This document shows, piece after piece, positions 30,091 to 41,338 of a stretch of DNA of 41,780 bases. The translations under genes and the position numbers were made by a program. How positions within the stretch are numbered: position 1 is the first letter of the stretch; every line of letters begins with the position of its first letter. Source of the stretch: a virus; the IMG/VR virus record IMGVR_UViG_3300028590_001001, positions 1-41,780 of that record; one strand, 5' to 3'. The notes beneath the pieces are model-generated. The model was not told where the DNA came from. It did no database searches and saw only the letters and a list, made by a program, of their open reading frames with translations.

Positions 30091-30291
30091 TCAGACAGCC
30101 CCCTGTCGTTGCGGCGGCGGAAACTTGTCGGGCATGTGGAGCCGGAGCCACATCTGACGGGCAGGCGGGATTGGCTTGTCCTCATCCCACTGCGCCACGG
30201 CAGCCCTACTTACGTTGAACACTTGGGCCAACGCCGAATCGGTGTCGACACCCAGGGTCTCTCGGACTGCCTTCTTGGTGAGCTCGCTCAT
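30091..30291 (-). CDS. Cro-like repressor (66 aa)
   Basis: Small helix-turn-helix protein of the Cro type: VRETLGVDTDSALAQVFNVS then RAAVAQWDEDKPIPPARQMW. In this family the protein binds operators and favours lytic growth. It is the first gene of the long leftward operon and is divergent from the CI-like gene across a 72-base region holding three operator dyads. No Shine-Dalgarno is visible before the ATG, and the predicted promoter puts the transcript start only a few bases upstream, so the mRNA may be nearly leaderless. Confidence 0.85.
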   Translation of the reverse strand: MSELTKKAVRETLGVDTDSALAQVFNVSRAAVAQWDEDKPIPPARQMWLRLHMPDKFPPPQRQGAV

Positions 30292-30300
30292 GGGGACGAC

Positions 30301-30329
30301 ACGCTAAGCGGTCTTTCGTCATTTGTAAA
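30301..30329 (-). promoter_or_regulatory. Predicted cro (leftward, PR-like) promoter
   Basis: -35 TTTACA (plus 30324-30329) and -10 TAGCGT (plus 30301-30306) with a 17-base spacer on the minus strand. The -10 is weak. Operator 30305-30316 overlaps the -10 and operator 30327-30338 overlaps the -35, as expected for a repressed promoter. Confidence 0.5.
30305..30316. promoter_or_regulatory. Repressor operator dyad 1 (TAAGCGGTCTTT)
   Basis: Matches WAAG-N4-CTTW, nearly palindromic. Overlaps the predicted cro -10. Confidence 0.65.
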
Positions 30330-30338
30330 GCCCTCTTT
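30327..30338. promoter_or_regulatory. Repressor operator dyad 2 (AAAGCCCTCTTT)
   Basis: Second copy of the dyad, 22 bases from the first (about two helical turns). Overlaps the predicted cro -35. Confidence 0.65.
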
Positions 30339-30351
30339 GCGTCTCGGTTGT

Positions 30352-30363
30352 TAAGCTGGCTTT
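30352..30363. promoter_or_regulatory. Repressor operator dyad 3 (TAAGCTGGCTTT)
   Basis: Third copy, 25 bases from the second, abutting the ATG of the CI-like gene at 30364. This leaves no room for a Shine-Dalgarno, so the repressor mRNA may be leaderless, as known for lambda cI from PRM. Binding here would block repressor synthesis. Confidence 0.65.
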
Positions 30364-30810
30364 ATGTCCCGAATGACAATCGGCCAGCGGCTCAGCGCCG
30401 CCATGAAGAAGGCAGGCTTGGCGAAGCCAGCTGACTTGGCGCGTGCCTCCGATAGCACGACCCCGACAATCAGCAACTGGCTCAACGACAACGTCGTGCC
30501 CGAGCACGTGAAGGCCGAGCAACTGTTTCGCATCGCGCGCGCCGTTGGGCTTTCAGGCTATGAGTTGCTGACGGGTGAACCGGAACATGTGCCTCTCCGG
30601 GTTAGCGAAGAGCAGACCCCGTATGCGTCTCAGTCCGTGCAACCGGAGCAGTGGAGAGTCGCCTTCCAGCTGGTAGCCGAGGCGCTGGGCGAAGGCCTCT
30701 CCTTACCACCCGCGAAGCATGCAGAGGTCGTCTTGTTGACCTACGAACTGCTCACCGAGGGCATGCCCAGGGCGAAAGTGCTGCGGTTCGTCCGGACTGC
30801 TGCGGCCTAG
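30364..30810 (+). CDS. CI-like lysogeny repressor without peptidase domain (148 aa)
   Basis: The N-terminal helix-turn-helix (residues about 5-65: KKAGLAKPADLARASDSTTP then ISNWLNDNVVP) is of the lambda repressor type. The C-terminal 80 residues are helical (EQWRVAFQLVAEALGEGLSL) with no S24 Ser/Lys protease signature, so it cannot be inactivated by RecA-stimulated self-cleavage in the usual way. It is divergent from cro across three operators. It probably represses both the leftward promoter and the rightward promoter at 31750. Confidence 0.85.
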   Translation: MSRMTIGQRLSAAMKKAGLAKPADLARASDSTTPTISNWLNDNVVPEHVKAEQLFRIARAVGLSGYELLTGEPEHVPLRVSEEQTPYASQSVQPEQWRVAFQLVAEALGEGLSLPPAKHAEVVLLTYELLTEGMPRAKVLRFVRTAAA

Positions 30811-30827
30811 GCCGCAAGGGGAAGTTC

Positions 30828-31184
30828 ATGCACGACAAAGTGACGCGCCTCAGGCAACTGATGGCCGAGGCGGTTCCGCGTCCGGCACCCGCGATCGCCT
30901 CAGAAGAGGACGGCTGGGCCCGGTATCAGAGGTTTGCGGCGAATCAGCCAGAGCCCATCGCGCTGGACGACACTGACCGCGCACGTGCTGTACGCGCAAT
31001 CAATCGAATCGCGACCTGGCATAACGCCACATCCGCGCTAGTGGCTTGGTTGGATAACGCTGGCGCATCCGGCATTGGGGCGCTCGACGATGAGCAAGTC
31101 TCCCAGTTGAGGGAACACATGCAGCGGATCGAGGATTGCATCCATCAGGGCTTCGATTCGCCGTTCGCACCGCCCGCAAGTTAG
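30828..31184 (+). CDS. Hypothetical protein downstream of the CI-like repressor (118 aa)
   Basis: ATG at 30828 has an AAGGGGAAG Shine-Dalgarno. Only 17 bases from the repressor stop, so probably co-transcribed and expressed in the lysogen. Helical and acidic, with RARAVRAINRIATWHNATSA and LREHMQRIEDCIHQGF stretches and no recognisable domain. It converges with the lipoprotein gene with a small overlap. Confidence 0.65.
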   Translation: MHDKVTRLRQLMAEAVPRPAPAIASEEDGWARYQRFAANQPEPIALDDTDRARAVRAINRIATWHNATSALVAWLDNAGASGIGALDDEQVSQLREHMQRIEDCIHQGFDSPFAPPAS

Positions 31185-31666
31185 CGGCGCGGCTGGAGGT
31201 TGATGATTCTCACGTTCGTCCCTTCGGGACGAACGATGCAATCGTAGGCGCCGATCCGCAGCGCCCCAAATGCATTACTTGCTCGCAGTGTCACCACAAC
31301 CGTGCTCGTCCCGTCGCCGTTCTTAGTCACAGGCCAAGCACTGGTCCGATCGAACTGCGCGCTGTCGGGGTCGTGCAGCACACGCTTGATCGAAAGCATG
31401 CATGCGCCACGAGCAGAAGACTCCCATTTGGCCTGTCGCTGCCCTTCCCGAATCAGCTCTTCGCGCTCGCGCGCGACCTGCTGGAGTCTCGCCGCCTCTC
31501 GCGCCTCAGCCTGACGCTGCTCGGGGGTCAGCGCCGCAACCCGGGCGGCCTCGGCGGCTCGACGCTCGGCTCGCCCCTGCCTTTCGAGCTCTCCTTGGCT
31601 AGGCCCGCATCCCGCCACGGCCACGACCATGGCAACCCCAACCATCGTGCGCTTCCAGCAATCCAT
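31181..31666 (-). CDS. Predicted lipoprotein (161 aa), possible lysogenic conversion or superinfection-exclusion factor
   Basis: Signal with lipobox MVVAVAGC (Cys20), then a Glu/Arg/Ala coiled coil (residues about 25-80) and a small C-terminal beta domain with two cysteines (SARGACMLSIKRVLHDPDSA and IGAYDCIVRP). It is transcribed against its neighbours on both sides, typical of a moron. Many prophage lipoproteins at this location block superinfection; that role is inference. The Shine-Dalgarno is provided by a run of nine G (31672-31680), 5 bases before the ATG. Confidence 0.75.
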   Translation of the reverse strand: MDCWKRTMVGVAMVVAVAGCGPSQGELERQGRAERRAAEAARVAALTPEQRQAEAREAARLQQVAREREELIREGQRQAKWESSARGACMLSIKRVLHDPDSAQFDRTSAWPVTKNGDGTSTVVVTLRASNAFGALRIGAYDCIVRPEGTNVRIINLQPRR

Positions 31667-31671
31667 TGCGA

Positions 31672-31680
31672 CCCCCCCCC
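31672..31680 (-). repeat. Poly-G (G9) tract at the ribosome binding site of the lipoprotein
   Basis: Nine C on the plus strand, G9 on the coding strand, ending 5 bases before the lipoprotein ATG. Such tracts change length easily, which would alter or shift the Shine-Dalgarno; candidate for phase variation. Confidence 0.6.
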
Positions 31681-31716
31681 TACCTGGACAACCCAGACGA
31701 TAGCTTCACACCCCGC

Positions 31717-31728
31717 TAAGCGTCCTTT
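31717..31728. promoter_or_regulatory. Repressor operator dyad 4 (TAAGCGTCCTTT)
   Basis: Same WAAG-N4-CTTW pattern as the cro-cI operators, between the lipoprotein and the rightward promoter; could also control the lipoprotein. Confidence 0.6.
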
Positions 31729-31740
31729 CTGAAAAGTTGC

Positions 31741-31752
31741 AAAGACTGCTTG
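31741..31752. promoter_or_regulatory. Repressor operator dyad 5 (AAAGACTGCTTG)
   Basis: 24 bases after dyad 4. Overlaps the start of the TTGACA -35 element at 31750-31755. One end base deviates from the consensus. Confidence 0.5.
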
Positions 31753-31778
31753 ACATTACGCTAAGTGTGCTTAATGCT
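31750..31778 (+). promoter_or_regulatory. Predicted rightward (PL-like) promoter of the DGR operon
   Basis: Perfect -35 TTGACA (31750-31755). The best -10 candidates are TAATGC (31772-31777, 16-base spacer) or AATGCT (31773-31778, 17-base spacer). Operators 5 and 6 overlap it, so the CI-like repressor should silence it in the lysogen. The first gene downstream is DGR target 1, after a leader of about 130 bases. Confidence 0.65.
31762..31773. promoter_or_regulatory. Repressor operator dyad 6 (TAAGTGTGCTTA), perfect palindromic ends
   Basis: 21 bases after dyad 5, between -35 and -10 of the rightward promoter. TAAG and CTTA are exact reverse complements. Confidence 0.65.
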
Positions 31779-31803
31779 TCGCACCGGGTCGGTCATCGGC
31801 CTG

Positions 31804-31821
31804 GGCGACCGGCGGGTCGCC
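31804..31821 (+). other. GC-rich hairpin in the 5' leader of the DGR operon
   Basis: Arms GGCGACC (31804-31810) and GGTCGCC (31815-31821) with a GGCG loop. No T-run follows, so it is not a standard terminator. Could stabilise the leader or take part in antitermination; purely speculative. Confidence 0.5.
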
Positions 31822-31913
31822 ACCCCGCCGGACTCCCCTTCCGGTCGCCATAGGCCCCTCCCCTGGCCGTAGGCACTGACCCGCCGGCGCTCTCCTTTCA
31901 TCCGGAGGCCGCC

Positions 31914-32315
31914 ATGTCCAACGCCGCAGCTCGCTTCACCTACCCCAACGGGGACGCCACCAGCGCCCTTACCGTCGTCGATACGACCACCGGCCTGGAA
32001 TGGCTGCGCAAGCCGCTAGGCCGCTTCGAGCACCAGCAGGCCATCGATACGTGCGCCGCGGTCGAACGAGACGGTGGCGGCTTCCGCCTGCCCACGCGTG
32101 CCGAGCTTCTCACGCTCGTCGACATCACCCGGCACAGCCCGGCCATCGACAACGAGGCCTTCCCTGCCATCGACGGCGGTTGGTTCTGGAGCAGCGACCT
32201 GTGCGCCTGGTCCTCGGCGTCCGCGTGGCTCGTCAATTTCAACTACGGCCTCGTCTACGACTCCCACCGCTACCTCAACGGGTTCGCGTTGGCCGTGCGC
32301 CGCGTCGGTCAGTAA
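31914..32315 (+). CDS. DGR target protein 1 (DUF1566/Lcl-type C-type lectin fold), 133 aa
   Basis: A minimal DUF1566 domain: DTTTGLEWLR, HQQAIDTCAAV, GFRLPTRAELLTLVD, then AWSSASAW and the variable region up to RRVGQ. Variable residues lie at about 109-125. The fold family (FGE/C-type lectin like) displays diversified side chains on a binding surface in DGR targets. There is no signal peptide, membrane segment or obvious virion-anchoring domain. Strong GGAGG at 31904-31908. First gene of the rightward operon and the target farthest (about 4 kb) from the template. Confidence 0.9.
   Translation: MSNAAARFTYPNGDATSALTVVDTTTGLEWLRKPLGRFEHQQAIDTCAAVERDGGGFRLPTRAELLTLVDITRHSPAIDNEAFPAIDGGWFWSSDLCAWSSASAWLVNFNYGLVYDSHRYLNGFALAVRRVGQ
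32204..32309 (+). repeat. DGR variable repeat 1 (VR1)
   Basis: Aligns without gaps to TR 36283-36388. Twelve differences, all at template adenines: AAC codons became CTC, TAC, GAC or TCC. The last 31 bases, free of adenine, are identical and form the IMH-like end. Confidence 0.95.
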
Positions 32316-32339
32316 TCGGCCCATTTGCCCATCTGACCG
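32306..32339 (+). repeat. Inverted repeat after VR1 (CGGTCAG ... CTGACCG)
   Basis: Perfect 7-bp arms with a 20-base loop, spanning the VR end and stop codon. A hairpin or cruciform at this position is required for efficient retrohoming in the Bordetella phage DGR. Absent from the template. Confidence 0.6.
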
Positions 32340-32350
32340 GAGACGCTGCC

Positions 32351-32569
32351 ATGTTCGACGCCCATACCTCGTCCGACGACCAGCTCGACCAGACGCTGGC
32401 CGCCCTCCCTCATGTCGCCACGCGCTGCCTGCTCGCTTGCAGCAGCCACGACCACACGCACGCCGAAGAGCTGCGGGCTGGTCATAACCGCCGCCATGCC
32501 CCGCGCCTGCACGTGGCCAGCGAGCGCGCGGAGATCCGCGCCCGCGAGATTGGCCGGGAAGCACGCTGA
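32351..32569 (+). CDS. Small hypothetical protein (72 aa)
   Basis: ATG at 32351 with GGAG upstream. His-rich middle (CSSHDHTHAEELRAGHNRRH) and a basic C-terminal helix. Begins directly after the VR1 inverted repeat. Family not recognised. Confidence 0.55.
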   Translation: MFDAHTSSDDQLDQTLAALPHVATRCLLACSSHDHTHAEELRAGHNRRHAPRLHVASERAEIRAREIGREAR

Positions 32570-32769
32570 TGGCTGCCCTCGTCATCGAGCTCGGCGCCGT
32601 GCGCCGCGCCCACCAGCAGCTGGAGCGCGCTGGTCGCCCCGACATGCGCCGCGAGGCCACGCGCCTGGTGATCTCCGAGAACCAGCACGGGCGCAACGGC
32701 TACATCGTCGCCAGCCATGTGCAGCTGCTGTGCATGCAACACGCGCGCACGCCGGGCGGTGCCGCATGA
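32569..32769 (+). CDS. Small hypothetical protein (66 aa)
   Basis: Starts at the last base of the preceding stop codon. Helical, with AHQQLERAGRPDMRREATRL; no motif recognised. Confidence 0.55.
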   Translation: MAALVIELGAVRRAHQQLERAGRPDMRREATRLVISENQHGRNGYIVASHVQLLCMQHARTPGGAA

Positions 32770-32852
32770 CCGCGCCCGCTCTCGCCCTCATGGTCCTGGC
32801 CTTCGCCGCGCTCGGCGCAGAAGCACGCCTCACCCGGAAGCCGCGCGCATGA
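32766..32852 (+). CDS. Tiny membrane peptide (28 aa)
   Basis: ATGA overlaps on both sides. MTAPALALMVLAFAALGAEA is a hydrophobic segment, followed by a short basic tail. Too short to classify; its reality rests on the consistent overlaps. Confidence 0.4.
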   Translation: MTAPALALMVLAFAALGAEARLTRKPRA

Positions 32853-33043
32853 ACGAAGCCCCCGCCTTCGACCGCCGCGCGGACGTGCCCAATGCAGCAC
32901 TGCCTTCCTACCTGCACCTGCAGGACCACAGCGCCTGCGACCACCACCCATGCTCCGTCTGCCTCGGGAGGCGGATCGTCAAAGGCAATCGCGACATCGA
33001 GCCCAGCAGCTGGTGGGCCCACGCCTTAAGGAGCCATGCTTGA
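32849..33043 (+). CDS. Small hypothetical protein with Cys/His cluster (64 aa)
   Basis: 4-base overlap with the preceding frame. HSACDHHPCSVCLGRRI contains three Cys and three His, a possible zinc site. Family unknown. Confidence 0.5.
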   Translation: MNEAPAFDRRADVPNAALPSYLHLQDHSACDHHPCSVCLGRRIVKGNRDIEPSSWWAHALRSHA

Positions 33044-33345
33044 ACACCATCTTGATCTTCGCCGCGTTCGCGGCACTCAACGTGCTGCTCGTCACCCTGG
33101 TGGCCAGCCGCTACGAGCGCGAGCTGGTTGATGCCGAGGCCCGAGCCGCCGAAGCCGAAACGGGCGTTCCCCTGCAGGTGCGGGCTGATGCCGTGGCCGC
33201 AGCGCATCAGGCATCGCTCGACAACCTCAAGCGCCTGCGAGTCGTGCCAGACGAAGACCGCCGCCGGCTGTGGCTGAGCGTGCGCGATGCGTGCGATGCG
33301 GAGATCCAGGACGTGCATGCCGCCAAGCAGGCGGGTGTTGCATGA
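33040..33345 (+). CDS. Small membrane-anchored coiled-coil protein (101 aa)
   Basis: A TTG start at 33040 is chosen because AAGGAG lies 6 bases before it and the preceding gene stops at the same place. The N-terminal membrane segment (ILIFAAFAALNVLLVTLVAS) is followed by a charged helix rich in Ala and Glu. Function unknown. Confidence 0.55.
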   Translation: MNTILIFAAFAALNVLLVTLVASRYERELVDAEARAAEAETGVPLQVRADAVAAAHQASLDNLKRLRVVPDEDRRRLWLSVRDACDAEIQDVHAAKQAGVA

Positions 33346-33509
33346 CGCGTCAGCCCTACCTCGGCGCCCTGGAGAGCATCCAGGCGACCACGCCCGACTT
33401 CATCCCGCCCGTCCAGCCACGCATGCGCGCCGCCACCGCCCTCTGCTGGCTGCTAGTGGCGTTCCTGATCGTCCTGACCCTTGCCGCATTTGGCGGCCAC
33501 TGGAGCTGA
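33342..33509 (+). CDS. Small membrane protein (55 aa)
   Basis: ATGA overlap with the gene upstream. C-terminal membrane segment ALCWLLVAFLIVLTLAAF. Function unknown. Confidence 0.5.
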   Translation: MTRQPYLGALESIQATTPDFIPPVQPRMRAATALCWLLVAFLIVLTLAAFGGHWS

Positions 33510-33510
33510 C

Positions 33511-33801
33511 ATGCCTGAGTTGCAGCCCAAGATGCGCGACGCGCTTCTCGCCGCCATCGCCACGCCTTCCCACACGCTGCAGCGCGCCTGCGGTGGCTAC
33601 GTCGCCCTGGGCACATCCACCGTGCGCCACAGCGGGCCGAAGCTCTTCCAGGCCTTCACGCGTCGCACCGTGAATCGCCTGCTCGACGCGGGCTTGGTGA
33701 CGTTCGACGAACCCGAGTTCCCCACCCGTATCACGCTGACCGAGGCCGGCGTGCGGAGTGCGCAGGAGTTGGAATACGCAGGAACGCGCCATGGCCTGTG
33801 A
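33511..33801 (+). CDS. Small protein with winged-helix-like character (96 aa)
   Basis: ATG at 33511, one base after the preceding stop. TRRTVNRLLDAGLVTFDEPE followed by TRITLTEAGVRSAQELE reads like a recognition helix and wing of a winged-helix DNA-binding protein. Could regulate this operon; speculative. Confidence 0.55.
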   Translation: MPELQPKMRDALLAAIATPSHTLQRACGGYVALGTSTVRHSGPKLFQAFTRRTVNRLLDAGLVTFDEPEFPTRITLTEAGVRSAQELEYAGTRHGL

Positions 33802-34087
33802 TACCTGCGGCCGCACTGGCACGCCCCTTGTGGACCTACTGAGTATCTACCAGACCGACAAGGTGAAGCAGGTCTGCCGCGAGTGCGAGACGGTGATCAA
33901 CCGACAGCTCTGGAATGCACAGGACGTCACGGGAAAGATCCAGCGCAGCCTCATGACGCGCTTTCTGGACCACCTCCGCTGGCGCAACCACTCGCAGCGG
34001 CACCCCTGCAGCCAGCCCGGCTGCATCCAGACCGACGGCGCCCCGTGCGCGTATCCGCAGTGCCCGCAGCGGAGTGCGCAGGGATGA
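33791..34087 (+). CDS. Zinc-ribbon-like small protein (98 aa)
   Basis: Overlaps the preceding gene by 11 bases. CDTCGRTG and CREC form a treble-clef-like pair of CxxC motifs, and further cysteines occur in CSQPGC and CAYPQC. Probably binds zinc. Function unknown. Confidence 0.55.
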   Translation: MACDTCGRTGTPLVDLLSIYQTDKVKQVCRECETVINRQLWNAQDVTGKIQRSLMTRFLDHLRWRNHSQRHPCSQPGCIQTDGAPCAYPQCPQRSAQG

Positions 34088-34293
34088 GCCTACCGACTCG
34101 CAGCCGCCAGAAGCAGCACGAGAGCGAGCAGATCGCGAAGGACACCGCTCGCTTCCTCGCCACGCGCGGCAACCGCATCGAGGTCTTGCCGGCCTTTGGC
34201 GCGCCGATGGGCTCCCCGCTCAAGACACGCCGCGAGCTGCATGACGAGTCCGGCGAACGCGCGAAGCGACGGCGAAAGCCCGAAGACGAATGA
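34084..34293 (+). CDS. Small basic hypothetical protein (69 aa)
   Basis: ATGA overlaps at both ends. Charged, with RFLATRGNRIEVLPAFGAPM in the middle and a C-terminal Arg/Lys cluster. No family recognised. Confidence 0.5.
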   Translation: MSLPTRSRQKQHESEQIAKDTARFLATRGNRIEVLPAFGAPMGSPLKTRRELHDESGERAKRRRKPEDE

Positions 34294-34535
34294 ACACCGC
34301 TCCACCCGCCCCGCGCCTGGGCAAGCAACTGAGGCGCGCGAACCAGCTGCTACGCGACACCGAACGCGTGCTGCACGACCTACCCGACCACCTCTGCCCT
34401 CGCCTGCTGCTGGAACGCATCCAGCTGCACCTGGCGAAGGACAACCCACCGCCAGGAGAACGCCCATGCCCAAAGAACTCACCGGACCCGATGCCCTGCA
34501 CGCGATCGCGCGCGAAAACGAGGGTCTCGGCCTGA
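34290..34535 (+). CDS. Small hypothetical protein (81 aa)
   Basis: ATGA overlap with the upstream gene. The first 50 residues look like a helical protein (LRRANQLLRDTERVLHDLPD); the rest overlaps the next gene and looks less coding-like. Confidence 0.4.
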   Translation: MNTAPPAPRLGKQLRRANQLLRDTERVLHDLPDHLCPRLLLERIQLHLAKDNPPPGERPCPKNSPDPMPCTRSRAKTRVSA

Positions 34536-34693
34536 CCGTCAATGCCGACCACTTCACGCGTCTCGCAAAGCAGTGGGAGGCGGCTGACCAGTACATCGAA
34601 CTGCTCGAAACCCAGCTCGCCGACCAGGGCAAGCCCATCCCGCCGCGGCCTCTGCCGCGTCACGCCGTCACGCCGTCCGATCGGCGCCACTGA
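34466..34693 (+). CDS. Small hypothetical protein (75 aa)
   Basis: AGGAG lies 8 bases before the ATG. Helical (DALHAIARENEGLGLTVNAD, LAKQWEAADQYIELLETQLA) with a Pro/Arg-rich tail. Overlaps the preceding frame by 70 bases and ends 11 bases before DGR target 2. This frame is the more convincing of the two. Confidence 0.55.
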   Translation: MPKELTGPDALHAIARENEGLGLTVNADHFTRLAKQWEAADQYIELLETQLADQGKPIPPRPLPRHAVTPSDRRH

Positions 34694-34704
34694 GGAGCAC
34701 CTCC

Positions 34705-35292
34705 ATGGAAAGCATCTCGATTCACGCGGACCAGGTCACCGTCCACCTGCACGCCGCTGGCAGTGGCAAAGCCCTGGCCGACCTCGCTGCTGCCGAACTG
34801 GCCACTCGCCAGATCGTGCAGGTCGATCTCGCTTCTGCAGAAGCCAACAACGCACCGCGCTTCATCAAGGTTTTCGCAGACGGCAGCGTCGACGAGCAGT
34901 CCAGCGATCGCACCGACCACGTCGCGGTGCTCGATCGTGCCAACAAGCTCATGTGGTCTGTCGAATCCCTGGGCGACCCCGACGACAGCGACAGTGGCGT
35001 CGCGCACGACCACTGCAACGAGCTGTGCCGCAATCTGCGGCTGCTCGACCACGACGACTGGCGCCAGCCCACGCGCGCGGAGCTGGCCTCGCTCATCGAC
35101 GACACGCGCCACGAGCCGGCCATCGATACGAACTTCTTCCCGCGCGTGAAGCCGCGCTGGCACTGGACGAGCACGCCGGCCGCCTGGTCCTCGGCGTCCG
35201 CGTGGGGCGTCCATTTCGACGACGGCGACGTCCTCGACCTCCACCGCAGCTACTACGGGTTCGCGTTGGCCGTGCGCCGCGTCGGTCAGTAG
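34705..35292 (+). CDS. DGR target protein 2 (DUF1566-type), 195 aa
   Basis: GAGGAG Shine-Dalgarno at 34692-34697. An N-terminal domain of about 70 residues (MESISIHADQVTVHLHAAGS) is not found in the other targets. The DUF1566 core follows: DHVAVLDRANKLMWSVESLG, DWRQPTRAELASLIDDTRHE, then AAWSSASAW and the variable end GFALAVRRVGQ. Variable residues are about 169-185. The extra domain may be the part that links this target to a partner. No signal or membrane segment. Confidence 0.9.
   Translation: MESISIHADQVTVHLHAAGSGKALADLAAAELATRQIVQVDLASAEANNAPRFIKVFADGSVDEQSSDRTDHVAVLDRANKLMWSVESLGDPDDSDSGVAHDHCNELCRNLRLLDHDDWRQPTRAELASLIDDTRHEPAIDTNFFPRVKPRWHWTSTPAAWSSASAWGVHFDDGDVLDLHRSYYGFALAVRRVGQ
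35177..35286 (+). repeat. DGR variable repeat 2 (VR2)
   Basis: Gap-free match to the whole TR. Fourteen differences, all at template adenines. Unlike VR1 and VR3, no inverted repeat is found just downstream. Confidence 0.95.
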
Positions 35293-35328
35293 TTGGCCCC
35301 TTTGCCCTTCCTTCCAGGAGCACATCAC

Positions 35329-35754
35329 ATGAAAAAGCTCACGATGATCAAGCTGGCCGCCGATGGCCAGGAACTGCCCGCCGATGCGACCGACTGGGTC
35401 GCCGTGAAGCTGCCCGAGCACGGACTGATCTTCACAGCCACGCAGATCAATGCCGAGGAGACGGACCAGGAATCGCTGCAGGCGCAGGCTTCGGCGCTGA
35501 CGCTACTCGATGCCAACGACTGGGACCTGCCCACTATCGACGAGCTGCAGCTGCTCATTGATCGCGAGCGCTACAACCCGGCGGTGCACACGGAGTACTT
35601 CCGCGACATCCAGAACGACTGGTATTGGAGCAAGACCCCGGCCGCCTGGTCCTCGGCGTCCGCGTGGCTCGTCCTTTTCGACGGCGGCGGCGTCAGCTCC
35701 TCCCGCCGCGGCTACAGCGGGTTCGCGTTGGCCGTGCGCCGCGTCGGTCAGTAG
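35329..35754 (+). CDS. DGR target protein 3 (DUF1566-type), 141 aa
   Basis: ATG at 35329 is preferred over an upstream TTG at 35293, since CAGGAG lies at 35315-35320. A short N-terminal part (MKKLTMIKLAADGQELPADA) leads into a divergent DUF1566 core (LDANDWDLPTIDELQLLIDR, DWYWSKTPAAWSS) and the variable region ending GFALAVRRVGQ. The most heavily mutagenised target (19 of 23 template adenines changed, including the single His codon, CAC to CGC). It lies directly upstream of avd. Confidence 0.9.
   Translation: MKKLTMIKLAADGQELPADATDWVAVKLPEHGLIFTATQINAEETDQESLQAQASALTLLDANDWDLPTIDELQLLIDRERYNPAVHTEYFRDIQNDWYWSKTPAAWSSASAWLVLFDGGGVSSSRRGYSGFALAVRRVGQ
35639..35748 (+). repeat. DGR variable repeat 3 (VR3)
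   Basis: Gap-free match to TR with 19 differences, all at adenines. Confidence 0.95.
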
Positions 35755-35769
35755 TCGGCCCATCTGACC
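35746..35769 (+). repeat. Inverted repeat after VR3 (GGTCAG ... CTGACC)
   Basis: Perfect 6-bp arms with a 12-base loop that contains the stop codon. Same arms as after VR1 but a shorter loop. Confidence 0.55.
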
Positions 35770-35780
35770 TGATCTGACAG

Positions 35781-36221
35781 ATGACGTCCCGCTTCCAGCC
35801 CCCGCCGATCATCAAGGCATCGCAGCGCCTGCTCGTGGACATCGAGCAGGCGGTGCGGTCCTTCGATCGTTACCACAAGTACCAGATCGGCAGCGATTTG
35901 CGCCGGGCTGCGGCCCATGTCGTGCACCTCGCATCACGCGCGTGGCGCGACATGGCGCATCGCCGCCGGTGGGTGGGCCAGCTGGTGTGGGCCGTCGACG
36001 AACTCAAGCAGTACATGCAGACGGCCAAGCTGATCCAGGCTTTCCGCAGCTTCAGGCAGTTCGAGCATCTTGCGCGCCAGGCTGAGCAGCTTGGCGCCCA
36101 GGTCGGCGGGTGGAACCGCCAGCTTTCCCCTCAAGCCCAGAATCCGTCCGGCCAGCAGTCCGGTGCGGAGCGTGGCCAGAAACTGAGTACCCGTGCCGCC
36201 TCCGCGGGGGCCAATCGATGA
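35781..36221 (+). CDS. avd: Accessory variability determinant (Avd-like), 146 aa
   Basis: Avd forms a pentameric four-helix barrel that binds the reverse transcriptase and template RNA. The sequence is helical and strongly basic: SQRLLVDIEQAVRSFDRYHK, LRRAAAHVVHLASRAWRDMA, RWVGQLVWAVDELKQYMQTA, FRQFEHLARQAEQLGAQVGG, that is four helices in order. The C-terminal 30 residues are Gln/Ser/Arg-rich and probably disordered. The stop overlaps the reverse transcriptase ATG by 4 bases. Length and position (between last target and TR/RT) match known DGRs. Confidence 0.85.
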   Translation: MTSRFQPPPIIKASQRLLVDIEQAVRSFDRYHKYQIGSDLRRAAAHVVHLASRAWRDMAHRRRWVGQLVWAVDELKQYMQTAKLIQAFRSFRQFEHLARQAEQLGAQVGGWNRQLSPQAQNPSGQQSGAERGQKLSTRAASAGANR

Positions 36222-37579
36222 CGAAGCCGCGCTATCCGCATCCGGGCTGCGCGGCCTGGTCGCAAGTGTACGGGGAGGCGGCCGCCTGGTCCTCGGCGTC
36301 CGCGTGGAACGTCAATTTCAACAACGGCAACGTCAACAACAACCACCGCAACAACAACGGGTTCGCGTTGGCCGTGCGCCGCGTCGGTGAGTTTCAAGGG
36401 GAAGGGAAGCCCGCACTGCTACAGGAGCTGTATCACGCCTGGCGCCGGGCACGCAGGCAGAAGGTGCCCAGCCACAACCAGCTGCGTTTCGACGCACGCT
36501 GGATGGACGGGCTGATCCAGCTGGAGCGCGAGATCCTCGCCGGTACTTGGTCGCCTAGCCGTTCGACTTGCTTCATCGCCACGCGCCCGAAGGCGCGAGA
36601 GATCCATGCTCCGGACTTTGGCGATCGCGTGGTGCACCACTGGCTCGTGCCGCAGCTCGAGGCCGTCTACGAGCGCGGCTTCATCCACGACAGCTTCGCA
36701 AACCGCCGCGGCAAGGGCACGCACGCGGCCGTGCGCCGCGCGCAGACCTTCGCCCGTCAGGTCCACAGCGGCCAGGGCGGCGGGTACTACCTGCAGCTGG
36801 ACATCCACAACTTCTTCAACAGCATCCACCGCCCCACGCTGTGGTCCCTGTTGAAGCCACGACTGCGGCGAGCGGGACTGCCCGAACAGGCATTGCGCGT
36901 CACTCATGCGCTGCTGCGACAGGATCCGGGCAAGGCCGGCGTGCAGGTGCGCGCCACGGCCGCGGAGCTGGCGCAGGTGCCGGCGCACAAGCGGCTGGCC
37001 AATGCCCGCCCAGGCTGCGGGCTGCCCATCGGCAATCTGTCCTCGCAGTTCTTCGCAAACGTCTATCTGGACGCTTTAGACCAGTTCGCTAAGCACGTGC
37101 TGAAGGCCAAGCGCTACCTGCGCTACGTGGACGACTTCGTGCTGTTCCACCACGACCGCGCCCAGCTCGCCCGCTGGGAGGGTCAGATCACGGAGTTTCT
37201 CGCCGGTACGTTGCGCCTGTCGCTCAAGCCGGAGATCCGCCTGCGTCGGCTGACCGACGGCCTCGACTTTCTGGGCTACGTGATCTACCCGACGCACACG
37301 CTTGCGCGCCCACGCGTCATCACGCACCTGAGGCGGGCCTTTGCCCAATGGGAGGGCAGCCACGTCGCCGGCGGCCGCATCCGCGCCACGCCTGGAGATC
37401 TCGATCGCATCCGCTGTGTGGTGGCCAGCTACGGCGGCCACCTGCAGCACGCCAACAGCCATCGCCTGCGCGCGGCAATTCGCCGGCGCTTTCCCTGGCT
37501 TCGTACAGCCGCGGTACCCCGCCGCTTCCATCATCGCCTGTCTGTCAGGCGCATCACTTTGAAGGTGCGGTCCGCATGA
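36218..37579 (+). CDS. DGR reverse transcriptase (453 aa), with the template repeat in its 5' coding part
   Basis: Copies template RNA into adenine-mutagenised cDNA. Motifs: LQLDIHNFFNSIH (catalytic Asp195), GLPIGNLSSQFFANVYLDAL (DGR-group motif 4), and RYLRYVDDFVLF (YVDD, residues 303-306), followed by LDFLGYVIYP. The RT-like part begins only near residue 65 (ALLQELYHAWRRARR). Residues 21-57 are the translated template: AWSSASAW, Asn-rich stretch, GFALAVRRVG. ATG at 36218 is supported by the 4-base overlap with avd; a GTG at 36374 inside the template end would give a normal-length RT (401 aa) without the Asn-rich leader. Confidence 0.93.
   Translation: MTKPRYPHPGCAAWSQVYGEAAAWSSASAWNVNFNNGNVNNNHRNNNGFALAVRRVGEFQGEGKPALLQELYHAWRRARRQKVPSHNQLRFDARWMDGLIQLEREILAGTWSPSRSTCFIATRPKAREIHAPDFGDRVVHHWLVPQLEAVYERGFIHDSFANRRGKGTHAAVRRAQTFARQVHSGQGGGYYLQLDIHNFFNSIHRPTLWSLLKPRLRRAGLPEQALRVTHALLRQDPGKAGVQVRATAAELAQVPAHKRLANARPGCGLPIGNLSSQFFANVYLDALDQFAKHVLKAKRYLRYVDDFVLFHHDRAQLARWEGQITEFLAGTLRLSLKPEIRLRRLTDGLDFLGYVIYPTHTLARPRVITHLRRAFAQWEGSHVAGGRIRATPGDLDRIRCVVASYGGHLQHANSHRLRAAIRRRFPWLRTAAVPRRFHHRLSVRRITLKVRSA
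36279..36388 (+). repeat. DGR template repeat (TR)
   Basis: 110 bases. All 23 adenines sit within 36308-36357, in eleven Asn codons (ten AAC, one AAT) and one CAC; the flanks (29 and 31 bases) contain none. After 36388 the TR reads GAG where the three VRs read CAG TA, marking the end of the repeat (IMH versus IMH*). Confidence 0.95.
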
Positions 37580-37767
37580 CCCTACCCCGGCTTCAGTACG
37601 TGACAGAGGGCCTCGCCATCCGATCACGCATTCGCGCACTCACCGACCAGCAATTGGCCGACCTTGTGGCGCTGTACACCGAGAGCTGCCGCCTGGAGAT
37701 CATCACCCTCAACACAGCTCGCCGAGAGCAACACCGGCGCAAGGCGGAGGCCCAGAAGCGGAAATGA
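37576..37767 (+). CDS. Small helical protein downstream of RT (63 aa)
   Basis: ATGA overlaps with the RT stop and with the excisionase start. Basic helical protein (LAIRSRIRALTDQQLADLVA, then a Lys/Arg-rich C-terminus). Family unknown. Possibly an HRDC-like or accessory DGR factor by position, which is speculation. Confidence 0.6.
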   Translation: MTLPRLQYVTEGLAIRSRIRALTDQQLADLVALYTESCRLEIITLNTARREQHRRKAEAQKRK

Positions 37768-37976
37768 AGCTCGTGGAGGCCCACCAATTCGTGGAGAAGC
37801 ACTTCGCGCCGGCCAGCCGGCCGGCGGACATCACGCTGCAGCGTTGGATGCGGGCTGGCCGCTTGCCTGGCCGGAAGATCGGCAAGACCTGGTATGTCGA
37901 CGAGGACGCCTTCCTGGCCGGCAATGAGGACGCCGGCGTGGAGGACCTGGTCAGCCGGGTTCTGGGAAAGGGGTAA
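37764..37976 (+). CDS. Excisionase-like DNA-binding protein (HTH_17 type), 70 aa
   Basis: LVEAHQFVEKHFAPASRPAD then TLQRWMRAGRLPGRKIGKTW is a winged helix of the excisionase/MerR-like type that starts with a recognition helix and a wing containing the conserved Lys and Trp. Six bases before the integrase gene. Expected to bend attachment DNA and direct the integrase to excision. Confidence 0.8.
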   Translation: MKLVEAHQFVEKHFAPASRPADITLQRWMRAGRLPGRKIGKTWYVDEDAFLAGNEDAGVEDLVSRVLGKG

Positions 37977-37982
37977 GCTCAG

Positions 37983-39080
37983 ATGATGGGACGCGCCCGA
38001 TCACGCAGCCGCGCCGGCTGGCCACCGAACTTGTACCCCTGCAAGGGTGGGTACAAGTACCGGCACCCACAGACCCGGAAGGAGACGTGGATGGGCATGG
38101 ATAAGGACCAAGCCTTCGCGGCCGCTCGCAAGCTCAATGCCGTCCTGCTGGTCAGCAACGACCTGGTCGCCAAGGTCGCCGCCGGCGCCAAGACCGTGGC
38201 CGAGGCGATCAATGTGCTGCGCGCGGATGACCTGCCGCACCGCGGCTGGGCGCCGAAGACGGCCGCCTGGTACGAGGTCTTCCTGAAGCGCATCGAGGCC
38301 GATCTCGGAAAGCGGCCGGTCCACGAGGTTTCCGTGCGCGACTGCGCGGAGTACATCCGACAGGTGACAGAATCGGCGCGCAGCCGGCAGACCTACCGCC
38401 TGGTGCTCGGCTGGATTTTCGCCTGCGCCCTGCAGGAGGGGTGGATCTCCGAGAACCCCGCGCTGCAAACCCTCAAGCACCGCGCCAAGCGTAAGCGCGA
38501 GCGTCTGACCGTCGAGATCTATCGCGCCATCCATGCCAGCGCGCCGCTGTGGCTGCAGAACGCCATGGATCTGTCGCTGTTGAGTCTGCAGCGCCGGGAG
38601 GACATCGTGTCGGCCCAGTTCGCACACGTGCGCGAAGGGGTGTGGCGAGTGGTGCCGCAGAAGACGGAGAACAGCAGCCAGGCTAGGCTGGAGATCGTAC
38701 TGACGCCGGACCTGCAGGCGGTCACTGATCGCTGCCGCGACCAGGTGGTCTCGCCCTACCTGGTGCACCGCCTGCCGGAGAAGCAGAAGCCCCGTGGCCA
38801 CCAGGCCGCCGCGCGATCGCACCCCACCCAGGTCTTGCCCGAACAGCTCACGCGCGAGTTCGCGTCGATTCGTGACCGGCTGGAGCTAGGCGGGGATCAC
38901 CCGCCCACATTCCACGAGATCCGCAGCCTGGGTGCCGCCCTGCTGATGTCCGAGGCCGGCTGGACTAAGCAGCAGGTGCAGGAGCTGCTCGCGCACCAAG
39001 AACTGTCCACGACCGAGATCTACCTCGAAGACCACGATTTGCCTTGGACTCGCGTGACACCGGGACTCAAATTGCCTTGA
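37983..39080 (+). CDS. int: Tyrosine-type phage integrase (365 aa)
   Basis: Lambda Int-like. The N-terminal arm-binding part is NLYPCKGGYKYRHPQTRKE (about residues 16-34). The core-binding domain spans about 85-165, and the catalytic domain has Arg204 (SLQRREDIV), Lys227 (PQKTE), His311 and Arg314 (HEIRSLG), His338 (LLAHQ) and Tyr347 (TEIYLED). It catalyses integration and excision. It reads toward the tRNA-Pro edge but is 2.2 kb away from it, with four minus-strand cargo genes between. Confidence 0.95.
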   Translation: MMGRARSRSRAGWPPNLYPCKGGYKYRHPQTRKETWMGMDKDQAFAAARKLNAVLLVSNDLVAKVAAGAKTVAEAINVLRADDLPHRGWAPKTAAWYEVFLKRIEADLGKRPVHEVSVRDCAEYIRQVTESARSRQTYRLVLGWIFACALQEGWISENPALQTLKHRAKRKRERLTVEIYRAIHASAPLWLQNAMDLSLLSLQRREDIVSAQFAHVREGVWRVVPQKTENSSQARLEIVLTPDLQAVTDRCRDQVVSPYLVHRLPEKQKPRGHQAAARSHPTQVLPEQLTREFASIRDRLELGGDHPPTFHEIRSLGAALLMSEAGWTKQQVQELLAHQELSTTEIYLEDHDLPWTRVTPGLKLP

Positions 39081-39772: not shown

Positions 39773-40225
39773 TCAAATAACTGCGATGGCCGGTGGCACG
39801 ACTGTGATCTGGTCACGTTGCGTGATCTTCAACGACAGCCCACGCAACTCCACGTCGTCCACCACTGCGCGCATTCGCAACGTACAAGGACCAGTAATCT
39901 CGAACGGAGACAGAACGATCTGGCCGTGGATGACGGACATCAGGCTCTCGTCTGCACCTTCCGGCGCCGCCGGCGGCATTGTCTCGGGAGGCAGATGCCC
40001 AACGACCAACTGCTCATCGTCGCGCAGAAGCCGAAACGAAACACTGGTGGGTGGCTCGTGCGCCGAGAAGATCACACGCACGAAGACACAGAGCTTGGGC
40101 AGCGTTGCTGGGAAGGACTCTAACTGCATACCGCCGGTGTAGCACCCAACGAGCGAGATTTTGCCGTTGACCTCTTCTCGAATGTCGTCACAGAAGATGC
40201 CGCCAATCGATCGCTGGATCCTCAC
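39773..40225 (-). CDS. DUF6941-like hypothetical protein (150 aa)
   Basis: The N-terminal FCDDIREEVNGKISLVGCYT is the pattern I associate with DUF6941 proteins, which are beta-sandwich-like and uncharacterised. The GTG start overlaps the antitoxin stop by 4 bases, so it may be the third gene of the toxin-antitoxin operon. No catalytic residues apparent. Confidence 0.65.
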   Translation of the reverse strand: MRIQRSIGGIFCDDIREEVNGKISLVGCYTGGMQLESFPATLPKLCVFVRVIFSAHEPPTSVSFRLLRDDEQLVVGHLPPETMPPAAPEGADESLMSVIHGQIVLSPFEITGPCTLRMRAVVDDVELRGLSLKITQRDQITVVPPAIAVI

Positions 40226-40692
40226 GAAGCAACCTCAACGGAGTCGGAAACTTGAGGCATATGCTCGTTCAAAGTGTTCATGTCGACGCCCAGCGCCATC
40301 GCTAGGCGTCGGCAAGTCTGCAGAGTAGGACAGTTATTCCCCTTCTCTATGCGGGCAATATGGGGCTGCTGCATTCCTACAGCGCTGGCCAAGTCGGCTT
40401 GGGACAAGCCACGACTTAAGCGGAGGGACTTCAAGGACTTCACGCCCTCCGTTGCTGCGCGATCTGCACGGCGACGACGGCTTGCCTGCATATCCTCCAC
40501 AAGCGTCTCGTCACGCTCCGCCATCGAAGCGATGAGGGAGTCGATCGACTGGCCTGGGCCGTAGTCGACATCCCCGCGCATGACAAAGCGCACAACCTCA
40601 CCCGAGGTCGCAGTCTGGGGCAGCTGGACGCCGGCCCTAAAGGAGGGCGTAGGCGTCGAGAACTCTTCGAGTAATAGGGTGACTTGGCTCAT
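40222..40692 (-). CDS. Antitoxin with XRE-family helix-turn-helix (HigA-like), 156 aa
   Basis: C-terminal XRE domain (residues about 85-140): LRLSRGLSQADLASAVGMQQ then PHIARIEKGNNCPTLQTC. The N-terminal 80 residues would wrap the toxin. The ATG lies 56 bases inside the end of the toxin gene, without its own Shine-Dalgarno, so translation is coupled. Toxin-before-antitoxin order is as in higBA. It should bind the inverted repeat at 41043-41058. Confidence 0.8.
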   Translation of the reverse strand: MSQVTLLLEEFSTPTPSFRAGVQLPQTATSGEVVRFVMRGDVDYGPGQSIDSLIASMAERDETLVEDMQASRRRRADRAATEGVKSLKSLRLSRGLSQADLASAVGMQQPHIARIEKGNNCPTLQTCRRLAMALGVDMNTLNEHMPQVSDSVEVAS

Positions 40693-41041
40693 AGTTGAAA
40701 CGATCCCTGTGGACTACGGCGAGGATATGAATGGTGCGACTGCGTGGAGTGAAGGCGTAGATGTAACGGTACTGAATGCCTTCTCGCTCCAGGTCCCACA
40801 GTTTCAGTCGCCAGAGGTTCAGTCCGGCTTTCTGCTGCGATTCGATTCGCGAGACGTCGATGTTCTCCAGCCAGTCTCCGTTTTCATAGCTGTAGCCATG
40901 GACCGTAAGGAGGTCGAGCTGATCCTGATCATCGTTAAGCTCCTGCAGGTAGGTCAGAAGATCGGCGCCTGTGTGGCGATCGGCGGCGCGAATTGCCTGG
41001 AGGTCGGCGGCAGCGTCGGGGTGGATTGACAGTTTGAACAC
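40637..41041 (-). CDS. RelE/HigB-type toxin (134 aa)
   Basis: VFKLSIHPDAAADLQAIRAA is the start typical of the RelE/ParE superfamily; LWRLKLWDLEREGIQYRYIY then AFTPRSRTIHILAVVHRDRF matches the core sheet with conserved Arg and Tyr. HigB and RelE cut mRNA on the ribosome; the exact activity here is not established. GTG at 41041 has GGAAGG just upstream and is preferred over the longer frame to 41095. Confidence 0.75.
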   Translation of the reverse strand: MFKLSIHPDAAADLQAIRAADRHTGADLLTYLQELNDDQDQLDLLTVHGYSYENGDWLENIDVSRIESQQKAGLNLWRLKLWDLEREGIQYRYIYAFTPRSRTIHILAVVHRDRFNYEPSHPITRRVLDAYALL

Positions 41042-41042
41042 T

Positions 41043-41058
41043 ATACCTTCCGTGGTAT
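41043..41058. promoter_or_regulatory. Inverted repeat ATACC-N6-GGTAT at the toxin start, candidate autoregulatory operator
   Basis: Five-base perfect arms two bases upstream of the GTG, covering the Shine-Dalgarno. Typical position for an operator of a HigA-like antitoxin. Confidence 0.5.
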
Positions 41059-41174
41059 GTCCTAGTAAACGCCGCACCGCACAGTTTGCGGCCACCGACA
41101 GCTGTGAGTTGGATCACGTTTCACAAGATATTCATGCCATATCACGTCCCTGGCCTCAAGCCTTGGGTGCCTCG

Positions 41175-41261: not shown

Positions 41262-41338
41262 TGGTCGGGGTAGCCGGATTTGAACCGACGACCACTTGTC
41301 CCCCAGACAAGTGCGCTACCAGGCTGCGCTATACCCCG
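41262..41338 (-). tRNA. tRNA-Pro (anticodon GGG)
   Basis: 77 bases, CCA encoded. Acceptor arm CGGGGTA/TACCCCG with discriminator A. Anticodon stem CTTGT/ACAAG with loop CTGGGGG gives GGG. T-arm GGTTCAAATCC is canonical. The 3' half faces the prophage, as usual when an integrase uses a tRNA gene as attachment site, so attR probably lies in it. Confidence 0.93.

Follow-up and report, generated by a model that had tools for sequence, protein, structure and literature searches.

Covarying helices predicted to bracket the template repeat of a prophage diversity-generating retroelement with three Lcl_C targets

In the diversity-generating retroelement (DGR) of phage BPP-1, the spacer 3′ of the template repeat (TR) recruits the reverse transcriptase (RT) with Avd and primes cDNA synthesis, and an element in the 3′ end of avd terminates it (PMC12875486). 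DGRs that carry several variable repeats (VRs) have also been described; they make up one seventh of the DGRs in one survey (PMC3521204) and 28.6% in another, which includes an element from Stenotrophomonas that has six VRs, of which five are in DUF1566 proteins (PMC6642488). We analyzed a stretch of viral DNA of 41,780 bases (IMG/VR record IMGVR_UViG_3300028590_001001, positions 1 to 41,780; the whole stretch is called the window below), which carries a DGR in which three VRs share one TR. An earlier reading of the window, made from the sequence alone, had placed the element at 31914-37579. This span does run from the start of the first target gene to the RT stop codon, but the sequence-only reading had missed both an RNA scaffold and the location of TR inside the RT open reading frame (ORF). 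Taken as a whole, the element is in our view probably a prophage DGR by which three small Lcl_C proteins are diversified from one TR, with TR lying between two helices, H3 and H4, that would respectively prime and terminate the cDNA.

The element resembles that of BPP-1 (mtd/avd/TR/brt) in its RT and Avd proteins, its one TR, its adenine-specific VR changes and its C-type-lectin target, and also in the VR-avd-TR-RT order and in the difference at the 3′ end of the repeats between the site for initiation of mutagenic homing (IMH) in VRs and its counterpart in TR (IMH*). However, BPP-1 has a single VR, in a tail protein gene, while the three VRs in the window lie outside the tail module. The DGR of Stenotrophomonas sp. 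SKA14 (PMC6642488), with which the present DGR was compared by its partial description only, is alike in host family, in its DUF1566 targets and in having several VRs, but has two TRs and six VRs; the present DGR is a member of this published multi-target type. Overlap of TR with the 5′ end of the RT ORF is found in the Group 3 DGRs of Schillinger et al. (PMC3521204), although these are an annotation class, and the parts of that paper used here describe neither a conserved ATGA coupling nor an RNA structure bordering TR. Similarly, TR is inside or at the start of the RT open frame in Burkholderia phage Magia, Shewanella phage QDWS and Vibrio phage VP58.5, and such overlap is not unique. Magia also resembles the window in having a small lectin-fold target in its integrase region, but the RTs of all three phages are <42% identical to the present RT. 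The stretch of Magia between avd and TR (L079, 3750-3905) looks structured by eye, has no match to the scaffold described below, and is possibly another class of DGR RNA.

TR (36279-36388, + strand) is 110 nt long, contains 23 adenines and is in frame within the RT ORF. Alignment by program of TR with VR1 (32204-32309, 106 nt, starting at TR offset 4), VR2 (35177-35286) and VR3 (35639-35748), all on the + strand and each followed by CAGT (IMH), was free of gaps and reproduced exactly the 12, 14 and 19 differences that had been counted from the sequence alone, at the same coordinates. All 45 of these differences are at TR adenines; if mismatches fell randomly over TR positions, the chance of this outcome would be about (23/110)^45 = 3e-31. 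The changes comprise 18 A>G, 16 A>T and 11 A>C substitutions. The 30-nt 3′ end of the repeats occurs in four copies in the window, compared to none in shuffles, and a search of the whole 41,780-base record found no fifth copy of TR or VR. The identification of one TR and three VRs as a phage DGR stands, as does the observation that all three targets share the ending GFALAVRRVGQ.

The genes for both proteins of the element are intact. The avd gene (35781..36221, + strand) matches phrog_3206 ‘Avd protein of DGR’ (1e-14) and also NF033474, at a value (7e-8) that is under that model's curated cut-off. The RT gene (36218..37579, + strand, 453 amino acids) matches phrog_1423 (3e-96) and RVT_1, encodes the motifs YVDD and GLPIGNLSSQ, and is homologous to brt of BPP-1 (27.5% identity); the class of the RT is assigned by profile, motif and this homology. 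The RT start codon (ATG, 36218) overlaps the avd stop codon (TGA) as ATGA, and the ORF continues through TR into the RT domain.

To place the element among its relatives, we used loci from RT searches, 51 from viral contigs and 21 from bacterial genomes, for which the closest named hosts are Lysobacteraceae. Nearly all of these loci yielded TR/VR sets in an automatic search for A-biased repeats, and both the ATGA overlap and the location of TR within the RT ORF were found in 61 of 61 scorable relatives. At least two VRs are present in 56 of 63 lineage loci and at least three in 9 of 63; several targets are the rule in this lineage. The earlier statement that three targets in one phage is uncommon therefore does not hold here with respect to multiple targets, which are also known from published DGRs, but three or more VRs are indeed found in a minority of the loci. 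One Stenotrophomonas genome, PS02298, contains two DGRs of this family (L057 and L061), each with its own scaffold.

Comparison of the relatives points to a structured RNA that flanks TR. Synonymous sites, examined in 56 loci, are constrained from ~36123, within avd, to ~36232, and again over TR and ~15 nt beyond it, after which they return to background. RNAalifold applied to 43 loci predicted a structure with a long-range helix that spans TR. In the window, the scaffold 5′ of TR (36134..36274, + strand), whose 5′ half is encoded by the 3′ ~90 nt of avd, comprises H1 (36134-37/36174-77), H2 (36143-47/36165-69), H5 (36198-202/36207-211) and H6 (36226-36/36245-55), together with H4 (36190-96/36268-74), which closes the last part of the scaffold and ends about 4 nt before TR. 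The 5′ strand of H3 (GAAACT, 36179..36184, + strand), at the start of an ACTGAGT motif, is predicted to pair across TR with 36390-36395. These latter positions are in the TR/RT junction, G/AGTTTC (36389..36395, + strand), in which the first G is the IMH* difference (C in the VRs) and AGTTTC is both the 3′ strand of H3 and RT codons.

The pairing exceeds that of the controls, in that 96.5% of alignment cells are paired, compared to 81.4% in shuffled alignments and at most 53% in slid ones, and 201 cells have changed on both sides, compared to 55.6 in shuffles. H3 is paired in 43 of 43 loci, 22 of which have both sides changed at one pair. The structure was derived from the same alignment that was used to count covariation, and therefore independent checks were needed. 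The middle pair of H3 has undergone at least nine changes on the RT tree (AU, UA, CG, GC and UG) and is never unpaired. Similarly, one pair of H4 has changed at least 13 times on this tree without ever losing pairing. With TR borders defined from the TR/VR alignment alone, H3 starts exactly 1 nt after TR in 42 of 42 loci, and the distance from the end of H4 to TR has a median of 4 nt (range −1 to 10). This is so although TR varies in length from about 86 to 139 nt across loci. The helices persist in L040 and L045 despite a shift of ~25 nt in the RT start. On this comparative evidence, TR is bracketed by two predicted, covarying helices, and the 3′ border is placed to the nucleotide.

We propose that the scaffold formed by the avd tail and the RT leader would, judging from its anatomy, recruit RT-Avd; that H3 (GAAACU/AGUUUC) would provide, where TR ends at its 3′ edge, the RNA:RNA duplex for priming; that RT would copy TR with errors at adenines until stopped by H4 at the 5′ edge; and that the cDNA would then replace VR sequence upstream of the CAGT (IMH) boundary. 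A role of the helices in priming and termination, in place of the 3′ spacer of BPP-1, seems most likely. The base that follows the repeat is G in 62 TRs (GAGT) and C in 125 VRs (CAGT), and this C is complementary to an invariant G that follows the 5′ strand of H3 (ACTG). If priming occurs from the 5′ strand of H3, such complementarity would fit, but it is only suggestive because the base does not vary. The GGGGG ribosome-binding stretch of RT falls in H5 and the RT start codon is within the H4 domain; because of this placement, translation and use as template may be mutually exclusive, such that each transcript would be either translated or used as template.

The sequences that follow the VRs also differ from those of BPP-1, in which a hairpin is found after VR (PMC3240598). 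A BPP-1-like hairpin or cruciform of 7-10 bp follows VR in 2 of 109 VR flanks, compared to 1.2% in random sequence, and none was found in the window. Instead, a linear motif, CAGTAATTGGCCnTTTTG, is conserved directly after VRs, both in the window (for instance at 32310-32330) and in relatives. Separately, we considered RNA-guided choice of target, by pairing of scaffold GGGGCCAA with the post-VR TTGGCC, and rejected it, as own pairs (4.76) did not differ from pairs with other loci (4.77).

To find how widely the scaffold occurs, we built a covariance model, R1, of its upstream part only (36128-36278). R1 matches the window at 36128-36281 (E=1e-33) and, when run on whole genomes, reports a single site for each DGR wherever it recognizes a genome. 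Matches were found in 18 of 395 genomes of the family, whereas among 398 genomes of the phylum R1 found only the one already known and none in the 397 others. We inspected ten R1 loci, which include at least one member of the training set (L091), and all ten have the matching H3 strand after TR, the ATGA start, A-biased VRs and a TR that is in frame with RT. Scores were also obtained with R1 for DGRs that are more distant (L065, L066, L070, L072 and L073), in which TR is outside the RT ORF, and a complementary pair is visible by eye at the H3 position in L066, L068, L072 and L074. At L065:9121-9255 and L073:4260-4396, ~0.8 kb separates TR from RT downstream, and the scaffold directly precedes TR; scaffold and TR are together there, apart from RT. 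R1 matched none of BPP-1, LPPA56, Magia, QDWS or VP58.5, and no such family was found among the 4227 models of Rfam, which gave only one chance-level match elsewhere. Judged against Rfam, part of the DGR literature and these five phages, the predicted RNA architecture appears undescribed and unlike that of BPP-1.

The three targets are small proteins with an Lcl_C (DUF1566) domain, and in each the VR lies at the 3′ end of a gene for a C-type-lectin fold (PF07603). Target 1 (31914..32315, + strand; E=2e-22) is a 133-amino-acid Lcl_C protein in which a signal peptide is not evident; target 2 (34705..35292, + strand; E=2e-23) has 195 amino acids, with an N-terminal beta hairpin and helix followed by the Lcl_C domain; and target 3 (35329..35754, + strand; E=7e-18) is an Lcl_C protein of 141 amino acids. 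The AlphaFold (AF2) model of target 2 has a predicted local distance difference test score (pLDDT) of 87, and its top PDB match is the C-terminal domain of Legionella Lcl (8q4e).

Where these proteins act bears on the meaning of the element. One possibility, compatible with the reading that we favor and in our view a serious one, if somewhat short of an even chance, is that the targets are expressed from the prophage, for example for recognition at the cell surface or inside the lysogen, rather than serving as tail or receptor-binding proteins. On the + strand, the DGR and its targets adjoin the excisionase and integrase genes, while terminase and tail genes are on the − strand, and RT is on the strand opposite to terminase in every one of the 18 relatives that gave a terminase match. 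Moreover, Lcl_C domains in these phages are found only adjacent to the DGR, no homologs of the targets were found in the tail region, and the 118 target ORFs inspected are mostly short, and neither a signal peptide nor a tail domain is obvious in them. (In most of the distant relatives, L066-L074, the targets have signal-peptide-like N-termini.) On the other hand, most phage DGR targets known so far serve in receptor binding (PMC10743442), the lectin-like fold is suited to ligands outside the cell, and gene position by itself leaves room for packaging of the targets into virions.

A second alternative concerns the coding of TR. If RT really started at a GTG or TTG inside or after TR, then TR would be non-coding and its open frame incidental. 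An in-frame GTG is present 15 nt before the RT domain in many loci, and two loci (L044 and L046) read TR in another frame, which is likewise open. In addition, RT residues 1-63 (the leader and the TR-encoded part) have an AlphaFold pLDDT near 30, whereas from residue 64 onward the RT fold is predicted with confidence, and such a tail would be dispensable for that fold. We nevertheless consider this alternative unlikely: the ATGA overlap is retained in all 61 scorable relatives and in the ten R1 loci, it shifts along with the avd stop in L040, L045 and L052, where RT starts ~25 nt further downstream, and several loci lack any ATG or GTG after the start of TR. In our preferred reading, in which TR is translated, its peptide product probably forms an N-terminal tail of RT that is disordered.

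A third alternative is that, in this phage, only a remnant of the cassette is left, inactive or in decay. The sequence-only reading had judged that the element looks active and had called for a comparison of VRs among relatives. For the family, the result of that comparison is clear. Among pairs of relatives with ≥90% identity in the 250 nt upstream of VR, TR adenines account for 1683 of 1727 VR differences; where identity is ≥97%, they account for 39 of 39, while only 17 of 2250 upstream positions differ. Family-wide, non-A differences number 16 among 1754 in 124 VRs. For this phage, to which no near-identical annotated phage was found, activity is only inferred. Decay does occur in the family: at L054 (9830-10036), TR has lost most of its adenines and resembles a mutated VR, as if a VR copy had overwritten the template, while RT and scaffold are intact. 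However, RT, Avd, TR, the three VRs, IMH and the scaffold are all intact in the window, and its VRs have neither non-A differences nor stop codons, as expected from recent overwriting; we regard the remnant explanation as improbable.

Several results do count against the reading of an active DGR with TR set between paired helices. No relative is close enough to test the activity of this element itself, the nearest found being 76% identical in RT. Four of the six H3 pairs are invariant, which is consistent with pairing but no proof of it. Finally, when folded as a single sequence, the window shows no gain in stability over shuffles (z = −0.15), and support for the structure is comparative.

Least probable of all is that this is an ordinary DGR of the BPP-1 type, in which the functional RNA is a 3′ spacer and coding would have given rise, as by-products, to both the apparent structure upstream and the frame of TR in RT, since, for all that RT and Avd share homology with their BPP-1 counterparts and published accounts place the structured RNA 3′ of TR (PMC8867640, PMC12875486), BPP-1 has 144 nt between TR and brt where here RT codons follow at once with no synonymous constraint past ~15 nt, no structured spacer RNA of the BPP-1 style was found between TR and RT, the structured RNA is instead upstream of TR and BPP-1 has no match to it, and the covariation withstands shuffling, sliding and reading-frame shifts (L040, L044). 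We are evenly divided on the further claim that the element defines a separate class of DGR RNA with a permuted layout, in which one upstream scaffold would prime (H3), terminate (H4) and so define TR, with TR and the RT ribosome-binding site inside it and autoregulation built in.

Downstream of the DGR are genes for an excisionase-like helix-turn-helix (HTH) protein (37764..37976, + strand; PF12728) and a tyrosine integrase (37983..39080, + strand; PF00589, PF09003), and a tRNA-Pro (GGG) gene at the right end of the window (41262-41338, − strand) is the likely integration site, though no repeat of ≥14 bp that could be an att core was found between the window ends. No sigma-70-like promoters were found in 30200-38000. 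Between integrase and tRNA-Pro, at 40222-41095 on the − strand, two overlapping small genes, by eye HTH antitoxin-like and RelE/HigB-like, are possibly a toxin-antitoxin pair.

The choice of where copying starts and stops in a DGR has been known mainly from BPP-1, and in this lineage comparative evidence alone places both borders of the template at two covarying helices. This yields a rule, open to testing, for what turns a sequence into a TR, along with a covariance model for locating elements of this kind. The overlap of template, scaffold and RT gene is a compact natural design.

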